Source of the DNA: Leifsonia xyli
Lineage (GTDB): Bacteria; Actinomycetota; Actinomycetes; Actinomycetales; Microbacteriaceae
Direction of reading: 5' to 3'
DNA: 64,000 nt
Assembly (NCBI GenBank): GCA_001647635.1
Contig: CP014761.1
Span: 1,550,001 to 1,614,000 of the forward strand
Shown here: positions 1 to 28,904 of the stretch, piece after piece
Numbering within the stretch: position 1 is the first letter of the stretch
Layout of the letters: every line of letters starts with the position of its first letter
Translations under genes and position numbers: made by a program
The notes under the pieces: generated by a model
Seen by the model: the letters and a program-made list of their open reading frames with translations, nothing else
What the model was told of the DNA's origin: nothing
Databases searched by the model: none

Positions 1-495
1 GAGCCGGTGATCGCGTCCCTGCGGGCGCCCATCCCCGAGGGGCCTGGCTTCGCGTGGTTCTCGCGCTTCACCAACGTCCCCGGCGATCCGCTCGCCGGCA
101 ATGCGGACGCCGCCGCGCGCGCGGTGCTGGACTGGCTCGACGACCAGCCGGCGACGCCGACCGGGCTGCTCGGCTTCTCGCAGGGCGGCGCGATGGCCCT
201 CCAGCTGCTCCGGCTGGCGCCCGAGCGGTTCGACTACGCCGTGCAGCTCTCCGGATTCGTGGTGAAGGGCGAGCAGTCGGGCGACGCCGACCTGGCCGAG
301 GCGCCCGTGCCGGTGTTCTGGGGGCGCGGCACGCTCGACGACACCATCCCCGCCTCGTCGCTCGACCGCACCACCGCGTGGCTGCCGGAGCACACGGCCC
401 TCGACGCACGCATCTACGAGGGGATGGGGCACGCGATCTCCCCCACGGAGCTCGGCGACATCTCCTCCTTCATCCGCACGCATCTGCCTCGCTGA
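1..495 (+). CDS. Alpha/beta hydrolase, phospholipase/carboxylesterase type (5' end outside window)
   Basis: The frame is open from base 1, so the N-terminus lies outside the window; about 164 C-terminal residues are visible. The nucleophile elbow GFSQGG, a later acid region (GRGTLDDTIP) and the histidine motif GMGHAIS give the Ser-Asp-His triad of the phospholipase/carboxylesterase branch of alpha/beta hydrolases. The FSQGG context and the closing segment with ISSFIRTHL are usual for these roughly 210-residue cytosolic esterases. The natural substrate cannot be read from sequence. A GTG at 7 is in frame but is unlikely to be the real start, because the oxyanion-hole strand would then be missing. 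Confidence 0.85.
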   Translation, partial: EPVIASLRAPIPEGPGFAWFSRFTNVPGDPLAGNADAAARAVLDWLDDQPATPTGLLGFSQGGAMALQLLRLAPERFDYAVQLSGFVVKGEQSGDADLAEAPVPVFWGRGTLDDTIPASSLDRTTAWLPEHTALDARIYEGMGHAISPTELGDISSFIRTHLPR

Positions 496-27293: not shown

Positions 27294-27926
27294 TCAGTCG
27301 TCGTCGAAGTCGACGACACGTCCTCGGAGGGCGCCGATGGCCTTCGCGCCGAGACGGACGGCGGCGACGGCCACGAAGGCGGAGATGACGAGCGCAAGTG
27401 CAGGGTCCAGCCAGAACCAGCCGCCGGTCGCGAGGATCACCGCCCCGGCGATCGCCACTCCTGCCGCGGCCGCGGCGTCGGCGAACGCATCCACGAGCAC
27501 GGACCTCATGTGCAGGTCCTCCTGCGCCGCGGACAGCCCGAGCACCGCTGCACCGACCAGCATGACGATCACGGTCACGACGCTGGCGATGACGACCGGC
27601 AGGCCGTCGACCTCGGGCGACCCTTCGGCGAGCCGGGCGACGGACTCGACGCCCACCGTGATCGTGACCGCCAGCAGCAGGGTCGCGTTGACGAGCGCGG
27701 CCACCGCGATCGGACGCTGCGCGTGTGGATGGCCCGGATTCCGGTCGCGCAGCGCGATCGCGATGAGCCCGAGCACGAGCCCGACGCAGTCGCCCACCGT
27801 GTCGCCGGCGGCGGCGAGGAGGCTCACGGAGTTCGCCGCCAGGGCCGCCACGATCAGGCCGACGATGAGCGCGGCGTTGAGCGCGAGCACGATCGAGATG
27901 CGTCGACGCTGTGACCAGCGGGGCAT
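27294..27926 (-). CDS. Cation diffusion facilitator (CDF) family transporter
   Basis: A 210-residue, six-helix CDF exporter without a long cytosolic C-terminal domain. The A-site Asp pair is in AAAGDTVGD and the second in SVLVDAFADAAA. Members export divalent metals such as Zn, Co, Cd or Fe in exchange for protons; substitution of His by Asp here may alter selectivity. It follows arsR by 7 bp on the same strand, so it is under the same operators. A role in arsenical handling itself is doubtful; metal efflux is likelier. Confidence 0.85.
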   Translation of the reverse strand: MPRWSQRRRISIVLALNAALIVGLIVAALAANSVSLLAAAGDTVGDCVGLVLGLIAIALRDRNPGHPHAQRPIAVAALVNATLLLAVTITVGVESVARLAEGSPEVDGLPVVIASVVTVIVMLVGAAVLGLSAAQEDLHMRSVLVDAFADAAAAAGVAIAGAVILATGGWFWLDPALALVISAFVAVAAVRLGAKAIGALRGRVVDFDDD

Positions 27927-27933
27927 CCGGGGC

Positions 27934-28284
27934 TCAGACGGAGGTCAGGAAGGACGACGCCGCATCGAGCGAGCCCGGGACGATCCGGTAGTACGCCCAC
28001 GTGCCTCGCTTGCTCCGGCTGAGATACCCGGCATCGACCAGGATCTTGAGGTGATGCGACACCGTCGGCTGCGACAGCCCGAGCGGCTCCGTCAGGTCGC
28101 AGACGCAGGCCTCGCCGTCGGCGTGCGCGGCCACCATCGAGAGGAGTCGCAGTCGGGCGGGATCAGCCAGGGCCTTCATAGCGCGCGCGACCGAGACGGC
28201 GTTCTCCTCGCTGATCACCTCGCGCGTGATGGGGGCGCAGCATGCCTGCAGGTCGCGCAGGGGCAGGAGCTCGGTGATCGCCAT
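27934..28284 (-). CDS. arsR: ArsR-family metalloregulator with Cys15-Cys16 and a Cys-Val-Cys
   Basis: A 116-residue winged-helix repressor. Adjacent cysteines at residues 15-16 (QACCAP) and a Cys-Val-Cys at 60-62 (ACVCDLTEPL) resemble the arsenite site of C. glutamicum ArsR, where N-terminal vicinal cysteines plus one from the HTH helix bind As(III). The HTH reads LGLSQPTVSHHLKILVDAG. The start is ATG 28284. Its promoter region with two palindromes faces the microprotein/arsC side. It heads arsR-CDF. Confidence 0.92.
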   Translation of the reverse strand: MAITELLPLRDLQACCAPITREVISEENAVSVARAMKALADPARLRLLSMVAAHADGEACVCDLTEPLGLSQPTVSHHLKILVDAGYLSRSKRGTWAYYRIVPGSLDAASSFLTSV

Positions 28285-28300
28285 GCGTCGATTCTCGCCG

Positions 28301-28324
28301 ATACATTGACAACCGTCAATGTAT
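28301..28324. promoter_or_regulatory. ArsR operator 1 (perfect palindrome)
   Basis: ATACATTGAC-N4-GTCAATGTAT is a perfect 24-bp inverted repeat, 17 bp before the arsR start. The TTGAC/GTCAA half-sites with a 4-bp spacer match the general ArsR-family site. It can control arsR-CDF and probably the divergent arsC unit. Confidence 0.85.
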
Positions 28325-28338
28325 TCGTTCACTCTGGA

Positions 28339-28360
28339 TTCATCGACAGCCGTCGATGAA
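28339..28360. promoter_or_regulatory. ArsR operator 2 (perfect palindrome)
   Basis: TTCATCGAC-N4-GTCGATGAA is a perfect 22-bp inverted repeat with the same core spacing as site 1, centred 37 bp from it. It lies 16 bp before the microprotein start, so it should control the rightward transcript. Half-site difference (TCGAC against TTGAC) may give graded affinity. Confidence 0.8.
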
Positions 28361-28375
28361 GAAGGGAGAATGATC

Positions 28376-28441
28376 ATGGGATGTTGCGACGACGACTGCC
28401 AGGTGCTGCCGGACGGCTCCTGCTCGCCCGACTGCTGCTGA
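28376..28441 (+). CDS. 21-residue Cys-rich microprotein upstream of arsC
   Basis: A 21-residue reading frame beginning MGCCDDDC and ending SPDCC, with six cysteines at positions 3, 4, 8, 16, 20 and 21 and four of the other residues Asp. GGGAGA about 7 nt upstream is a fair ribosome site. It lies between the second ArsR operator and a 28-nt hairpin, then arsC. Two roles fit: a metal(loid)-binding peptide, or a cysteine-sensing leader peptide. Poly-Cys uORFs acting as cysteine-responsive attenuators are known in mycobacteria. I do not recognise a named family. Confidence 0.6.
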   Translation: MGCCDDDCQVLPDGSCSPDCC

Positions 28442-28446
28442 CAGCC

Positions 28447-28474
28447 CGGGGCCGTCGCCCGAGCGGCGGCCCCG
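28447..28474 (+). terminator. Strong hairpin between the microprotein and arsC
   Basis: CGGGGCCG (28447-28454) pairs with CGGCCCCG (28467-28474), and TCGC pairs with GCGG (one wobble) around a CCGA tetraloop, giving about 12 bp. It starts 5 nt after the microprotein stop and ends 20 nt before arsC. It may be an intrinsic terminator or an attenuator; no U tract follows. Confidence 0.65.
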
Positions 28475-28493
28475 ACCGACCACCGGAGGAACC

Positions 28494-28904
28494 ATGACCA
28501 CCACCCCCACCGTCCTCTTCGTCTGCGTCCACAACGCGGGGCGTTCGCAGATGGCCGCCGGCTACCTGCGGGCGCTGGCGGGCGACCGCGTCGAGGTGCT
28601 CTCGGCCGGATCCGAGCCGGGTGACCGCATCAACCCTGTCGCCGTCGCCGCGATGGCCGAGGAGGGCATCGACATCGCCGGCAATGCGCCGAAGGTCCTG
28701 ACCACCGAGGCCGTGCAGGAGTCGGATGTCGTCATCACCATGGGCTGCGGCGACACGTGCCCCATCTTCCCCGGCAAGCGGTATGAGGACTGGGAGCTCG
28801 ACGACCCGGCCGGGCGCCCGATCGAGGAGGTGCGCCCGATTCGAGACGAGATCAAGCGCCGTGTCGAGGCGCTGCTGGCGGAGGTCGCACCGCTCGTGCA
28901 ATGA
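28494..28904 (+). CDS. arsC: Arsenate reductase (arsenate-mycothiol transferase type)
   Basis: A 136-residue low-molecular-weight phosphatase-fold ArsC. The P-loop CVHNAGRSQ has nucleophile Cys11. Cys85 and Cys89 in TMGCGDTC match the thiol-linked ArsC set, and the DPAGR Asp general acid is present. In corynebacteria and relatives such enzymes form an arseno-mycothiol adduct that mycoredoxin then reduces. GGAGG before the ATG is well placed. Control by ArsR is expected from the operators upstream. Confidence 0.92.
   Translation: MTTTPTVLFVCVHNAGRSQMAAGYLRALAGDRVEVLSAGSEPGDRINPVAVAAMAEEGIDIAGNAPKVLTTEAVQESDVVITMGCGDTCPIFPGKRYEDWELDDPAGRPIEEVRPIRDEIKRRVEALLAEVAPLVQ

Follow-up and report, generated by a model that had tools for sequence, protein, structure and literature searches.

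Metallothioneins are known from bacteria (SmtA/BmtA and MymT) and from fungi, which have metallothioneins of 25 residues, and vicinal cysteines bind many thiophilic ions. Here we describe a gene for a cysteine-rich microprotein located next to an arsenic regulator gene in Leifsonia xyli (family Microbacteriaceae). The stretch of DNA analysed is 64,000 nucleotides long and is called the window below. The microprotein and its relatives resemble metallothioneins in being small, cysteine-rich, probably metal-controlled and presumed buffers of soft metals, and some fungal metallothioneins are as short. The high cysteine content in a very small protein is thus shared, whereas a recognised metallothionein domain is missing. 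The microproteins differ further in having no Pfam match, in their length of 17-27 amino acids within the family (11 and 13 amino acids outside), in their C-terminal Cys-Cys pair, in their place divergent from a CgArsR-like repressor and in their fast sequence change. They also resemble the peptides of phytochelatin- and glutathione-type arsenite chelation, being short cysteine peptides that would chelate As(III), but they are encoded by a gene beside arsR.

CgArsR, the ArsR of Corynebacterium glutamicum (6j0e), has been reported to bind As(III) via Cys15, Cys16 and Cys55 (PMC11868830). For Bacillus sp. CDB3 it has been reported that a hairpin inside the ars1 operon lowers downstream expression and that its removal raised the long transcript (PMC4562236). 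The likeness to the locus described here is a hairpin within an ars operon that lowers, or in our case may lower, downstream expression. The CDB3 hairpin differs in sitting between arsC and arsD, where the available text of that report describes no microprotein. Mycobacterial poly-Cys leaderless ORFs are a precedent for leader peptides with Cys codons (Canestrari et al. 2020, as cited in PMC9031893). There, too, a short ORF with Cys codons precedes an operon gene; as far as the available text of PMC9031893 describes those ORFs, the microgene reported here differs by a Shine-Dalgarno sequence, a 5′ UTR that is probably present, conservation of residues other than Cys, and copies that lack a downstream arsC. 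Titles and abstract openings of papers found in searches of the open-licence PMC literature yielded no description of peptides like those reported here.

The region between arsR and arsC

A 21-codon ORF extends from position 28376 to 28441 on the forward strand, with its ATG at 28376 and a TGA at 28439-28441. Read from the sequence, it encodes MGCCDDDCQVLPDGSCSPDCC, in which six of the 21 residues are cysteines (positions 3, 4, 8, 16, 20 and 21), exactly as an earlier note on this DNA had claimed. The Shine-Dalgarno-like sequence AAGGGAG (28362-28368, forward strand) ends 7 nt before the ATG, and a purine-rich stretch resembling it is present at the same site in the other 17 loci that have this type of microprotein. 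A second in-frame ATG is located at 28370; since it lies only 1 nt after AAGGGAG and is present in 6 but absent from 12 of the 18 loci, the ATG at 28376 is the likely start.

Downstream of the ORF, an arsC-like gene (28494-28904, forward strand) codes for an arsenate reductase of 136 amino acids with the LMW phosphatase fold (PF01451, 1.4e-23). Its product also matches TIGR02689 (5.4e-30, which is under the curated cut-off of that model) and the PDB arsenate reductase 3t38 (8.3e-37). The divergent arsR gene (27934-28284, reverse strand) encodes a protein of 116 amino acids, the best solved relative of which is the ArsR 6j0e (1.3e-17); NF033788 is matched at 2.5e-28. It is followed on the same strand, 7 nt downstream, by a gene for a CDF-family cation transporter (27294-27926, reverse strand; PF01545, 4.6e-20; TIGR01297, 4.1e-28). 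On an Amnibacterium plasmid an ArsR gene is likewise followed by a cation transporter.

Two operator-like palindromes are located between arsR and the ORF. The first (28301-28324) is a perfect 10-bp inverted repeat, ATACATTGAC-4-GTCAATGTAT, and contains TTGACA; the second (28339-28360) is a perfect 9-bp inverted repeat, TTCATCGAC-4-GTCGATGAA. The core of the first, ATTGAC-4-GTCAAT, and the ATCGA...TCGAT of the second are kept in all 18 loci, and ArsR may bind at both. With these palindromes upstream and arsC downstream, the ORF lies between putative ArsR operators and arsC, in line with the earlier note. A loose operator pattern was found with both elements in 56 of 90 loci, with the first only in 27 and with the second only in one, while six had neither.

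The window ArsR contains the vicinal pair Cys15-Cys16 plus Cys60 and Cys62 (CVC at 60-62). It thus shares with CgArsR the vicinal pair near the N-terminus and a cysteine in the HTH region, which together characterise a CgArsR-type repressor, and differs from it by the extra cysteine of the CVC. Judging from the alignment with 6j0e, Cys60 would be the counterpart of Cys55; the 6j0e chain has a serine at this place. ArsRs of microprotein loci have Cys15/16 in 38 of 39 cases (the remaining one has a gap) and Cys60/62 in 39 of 39. Loci without microgenes have the same cysteines (Cys15 and Cys16 in 63 and 67, Cys60/62 in all 69 of the other ArsRs), so the cysteine set is not special to microprotein loci.

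In the slot divergent from related ArsRs one often finds arsC, ACR3 or other arsenic-looking genes. The labels arsC and ACR3 were borne out by searches, and further genes facing these regulators we take to be FAD oxidoreductases, methyltransferases and lyases. From these properties of the regulator and its relatives, control of the microgene by arsenite is likely; its placement under arsR is well supported.

A known protein family was rejected for the microprotein: MGCCDDDCQVLPDGSCSPDCC has no Pfam match at 0.001, and six members of the class described below have none up to E 10. Its PDB profile matches were all at E 1.8 or worse and were taken as chance. A known RNA element was likewise rejected, as no Rfam match was found at the locus.

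Conservation and distribution of the microproteins

Among 31 arsC loci from the genus of the window (L001-L031, including two from the window's own genome), 12 have the peptide upstream of arsC. A profile built from these 12 peptides (A2) matches 15 of 28 genomes of the genus. It also matches 13 of 398 sampled genomes of the family; nine of these belong to the same genus and two to a second genus, and the other two matches are weak, partial and were discounted. The window-type set comprises 18 loci, the window and L132-L148. All six cysteines are invariant in the 18 loci, as are the core residues Q, L, P, D and G, the codons of which change synonymously. The pN/pS ratio over 153 pairs from these loci is 0.30 (0.107/0.359), and the 14 copies of equal length vary in 6, 5 and 14 of the 21 columns at codon positions 1, 2 and 3, respectively. 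Since these loci were collected with a motif and a profile, part of the invariance of cysteines and other residues is a product of the selection, which does not apply to the synonymous bias. The earlier note had named a lack of conservation in relatives as evidence against its proposal; instead, the frame and the six cysteines recur. From this comparison we conclude that the ORF at 28376-28441 is a real gene, a status that is well supported. In three loci (L134, L136 and L145) the stop codon is directly followed by short tandem repeats of the final codons (the Cys-Cys-stop stretch), as if generated by replication slippage.

ArsR searches matched 172 of 299 genomes of the family at 1e-25 and 279 of 394 genomes of the class at 1e-20. 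For the slot divergent from arsR, 81 loci of the family were taken down the ArsR match list after its first eight rows, which are of the window type and were already counted; the 81 are 80 loci plus L197, and row G071 within that range was left out. ORFs of 7-32 amino acids were accepted if they had at least four cysteines, at least 15% cysteine, ATG or GTG as start and a Shine-Dalgarno-like motif. Altogether, 19 of the 81 loci (17 genomes) have other cysteine microproteins in the slot, compared with 1 of 81 on the opposite strand and 1 of 1476 windows drawn at random from related loci. The survey of this slot thus revealed a class beyond MGCCDDDCQVLPDGSCSPDCC that the earlier note had not seen. 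Its 19 members are 17-27 amino acids long, have 4-10 cysteines and represent 17 distinct sequences; examples are MHDCCDPVECPTNCATRCPGGPCC, MNGCCDPEEGCCEPGCC, MADGCCGTDASCCEGCCENGCCETSCC and MNADATCLELGCPPELDEQCCTTSCC. All 19 end with Cys-Cys-stop, a feature absent from the search rule, while non-Cys residues vary much across the class and the number and spacing of the cysteines are variable. A hint of common descent comes from the motif CCDP, which is present in ten of the 17 distinct sequences and also in L139, a locus of the window type. Profile A2 reported genomes with the window type but not those of the other microproteins; inspecting the slot next to a single regulator therefore brings to light microproteins that escape a sequence profile. 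In the slots of L232 and L271, longer small ORFs (about 50-55 amino acids) also seem, by reading of the sequence, to end with Ala-Cys-Cys-stop.

Microgenes start 78-103 nt from the ArsR start, with one exception at 145. They were found in 14 of 18 loci with ArsR identities of at least 74%, in 5 of 30 at 68-74% and in none of 33 below 68%. The four misses in the first band are L215 and L218, which have arsC directly in the slot, L272 with ACR3 and L238 with a truncated slot. Two of 80 named arsC loci, both from outside the family, show an ORF of this kind adjacent to a gene for a CgArsR-like protein: L055 from Nocardioides (MDDCCTGTGCC, 11 amino acids) and L081 from a Marmoricola MAG (MAENECCDCCGCC, 13 amino acids). 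Of 69 class-level loci, some of which are from the same family and one of which (L166) had only 92 nt of flank, one has a microprotein (L299, probably the same record as L055). A class-wide spread was rejected on this count. The distribution is patchy, as seen from 15 of 28 genomes in the genus, none of the 33 loci with ArsRs less than 68% identical and one of the 69 class-level loci.

Cysteine microORFs also occur elsewhere in ars operons, beside other ArsR types: L016 from the same genus (428-484, forward strand, MECCDPTVCDPSACEDCC) and L064 from Naasia (427-492, forward strand, MDTCCDGSCCTGACADGCTCC), both adjoining FAD-oxidoreductase-like genes. The whole-locus scan that detected them gave seven rows in 762,013 bases, corresponding to five ORFs of which two appear to be chance hits, versus one row in the reversed sequence.

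On the ArsR tree (108 rows), the microprotein trait needs four label changes compared with a mean of 32.0 for shuffled labels, and none of 500 shuffles was as low. One group of 38 rows contains 36 of the 37 family copies; its other two rows, L238 and L150, belong to one genome. With an SH-aLRT value of only 85 for this group, an alignment of 116 columns and 57 open forks out of 101, the tree shows clustering and not a precise history. In L238, arsR and arsC sequences lie head to head, and the arsR start, the operators and the microgene are missing, since the arsR match begins at residue 12 and abuts the arsC sequence; this looks like a local deletion.

The hairpin and the genes downstream

A GC hairpin is located at 28447-28474 (forward strand), with arms of 12 nt (28447-28458 and 28463-28474; 92% complementary, one U-G pair) and the loop CCGA. 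It begins 5 nt past the stop codon of the microgene and ends 19 nt before the arsC ATG at 28494. The 12-bp hairpin described previously at this distance from the frame is thus present, and the gap to arsC, given as 20 nt, has to be corrected. Stems of at least 12 positions, with one mismatch allowed, were found within 90 nt past the stop in 30 of 37 microgenes and in 195 of 1408 windows drawn at random from these loci; for stems of at least 10 positions in the same span the numbers are 35 of 37 and 694 of 1408. The mean folding z of the 75 nt past the stop is −2.25 for the 37 loci (mononucleotide shuffles), and the window region as a whole has a folding z of −2.02 (dinucleotide shuffles). The subgroups have stems of different sequence, and a hairpin is present even behind microgenes without arsC, which had escaped the earlier note. 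No terminator with a T run (U tract) after a GC hairpin was called. Probably, the hairpin serves as terminator or processing hairpin of the microgene, with some transcription reaching arsC.

The only neighbour common to all 18 window-type loci is the divergent arsR; according to a simple gene caller the other flanks differ. In 13 of the 18, arsC comes next. The other five (L134-L138) lack it there and are followed by a predicted convergent gene, which makes transcripts of the microgene alone likely. Among the 37 microgenes of the family, 27 directly precede arsC at less than 350 nt and ten are not directly followed by it. Two of the ten (L208 and L244) have an aquaporin-like gene and then arsC; for the other eight, the 2 kb downstream do not contain arsC, and in six of these (L228 and the five of the window type) the next predicted gene is convergent. 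Several relatives lack a Cys microORF and have arsC placed immediately after operators of this kind.

A plasmid-borne cassette was rejected after sequence searches and inspection of three of 140 plasmid records with a related ArsR. The microprotein gave no tblastn match, although the low-complexity filter of BLAST can mask queries of this type, and the window region 28200-28500 gave none. In the plasmid records, the closest ArsR (Amnibacterium pAKP20, 78.4%) faces a gene for an FAD-dependent oxidoreductase.

Proposed arsenite trapping and alternative roles

The interpretation we favour, and consider rather probable, is that the microprotein is an arsenite-inducible trap resembling a metallothionein, which would take up As(III) and perhaps further thiophilic ions. 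The divergent promoter would be under repression by ArsR and be released when As(III) binds to ArsR, and the microprotein would be made with or without ArsC. The clustered thiols, including the C-terminal vicinal pair, would hold As(III) in three-coordinate sites, so that a peptide with six cysteines could take up about two As(III) ions. Most transcripts would be terminated or processed at the hairpin behind the microgene, and the peptide would therefore be in excess over ArsC, the product of which is As(III). Translation of the microprotein, its induction by arsenite, its binding of As(III) and its excess over ArsC are what we infer. The cysteine density, the Cys-Cys pairs, the freedom of the non-Cys sequence and the arsenic-type neighbourhood fit a buffer better than a partner of an enzyme. 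Of the two functions suggested previously, a thiol peptide that traps arsenite or metal is the one that gained ground: the peptide is conserved, lies beside a CgArsR-like regulator and is one of a class of divergent cysteine microproteins that occupy this slot.

The cargo might be different. A trap or chaperone for Cd, Zn, Cu or Sb appears rather unlikely, as does a buffer that takes the inducer away from ArsR and thereby resets it. The CDF gene that follows arsR in the window may speak for Cd or Zn, but the simple gene caller showed none adjacent to arsR in any of the 17 other loci of the window type, and the arsenic-looking genes in the divergent slot of related ArsRs argue against a cargo other than arsenic.

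Another alternative, which we regard as unlikely, is that of a thiol partner of ArsC, which would provide this enzyme with reducing thiols or relay them to it, or would hand on the As(III) that ArsC releases. This would agree with the frequent arsC neighbourhood (27 of 37), and the four genomes of the genus with a microgene but no adjacent arsC (G008, G010, G020 and G022) each have arsC elsewhere. Against it, copies without arsC sit beside their own arsR, and the number and spacing of the cysteines vary across the class, unlike what is expected of a specific redox partner.

The other function suggested by the earlier note, a leader peptide tuning read-through into arsC, is quite improbable and was rejected as the main function. 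Here, ribosome stalling at the Cys codons, or a cysteine shortage induced by arsenite, would set read-through into arsC or its translation. The 27 microgenes that lie shortly before arsC, mostly with a hairpin between, would suit such a mechanism, as would the mycobacterial precedent. In the window, 9 nt of the ORF (28412-28420) are complementary to a hairpin arm (28448-28456), and single loci pair well (z of −3.26 in L211, −2.14 in L141 and −2.00 in L142). Over 35 loci (two of the 37, with stems below 10, were left out) the mean z of the pairing between ORF and arm is −0.28 for the 5′ arm and 0.00 for the 3′ arm, which is close to synonymous shuffles. Furthermore, eight of the 37 copies are without arsC within 2 kb, so that the ORF is not always upstream of the gene supposed to be regulated, and a hairpin follows most microgenes regardless of the next gene. 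Conservation is not confined to Cys codons, as in the window type Q, L, P, D and G stay invariant while their codons change; the Shine-Dalgarno sequence and the 5′ palindrome fit a leadered mRNA; and relatives with arsC straight behind the operators manage without the microORF. That the ORF arose by chance in an intergenic stretch with operator and hairpin, as its very short length and the lack of a known family might suggest, is extremely improbable and in our view already refuted by its recurrence in relatives with conserved frame and cysteines and by the single comparable ORF in the random windows.

In the genus of the window, arsC is present in 26 of 28 genomes and ACR3 was found in none of the 28, while control genomes including C. 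glutamicum gave matches. An ArsB-family match (PF02040, threshold 1e-20) above the Pfam cut-off, at 75 bits, was obtained in two of the 28, one of which (G021) has the microgene, and thus an arsenite pump is still conceivable in this genus. Replacement of the pump as a family-wide rule was rejected, because genomes with microproteins have ACR3 just as seldom (4 of 19) as those that lack them (14 of 55).

Tentatively, and at somewhat below even likelihood in our estimate, many Microbacteriaceae may answer arsenite with encoded, fast-diversifying thiol microproteins under ArsR control, a bacterial counterpart of phytochelatins in which sequestration would partly or wholly replace export by ACR3 or ArsB. 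This allows a clear test, namely whether arsenite tolerance depends on the microprotein or not. The 17 further distinct peptides, which share cysteine clusters and the C-terminal Cys-Cys, are a natural set for asking what a minimal arsenite site requires. If the proposal is true, a layer of bacterial arsenic resistance would have gone unseen because microproteins of 11-27 residues would escape the usual gene calling. The component missing so far would be a gene-encoded buffer for arsenite, some 20 residues long, and this in a family with ACR3 in only 18 of 74 sampled genomes.
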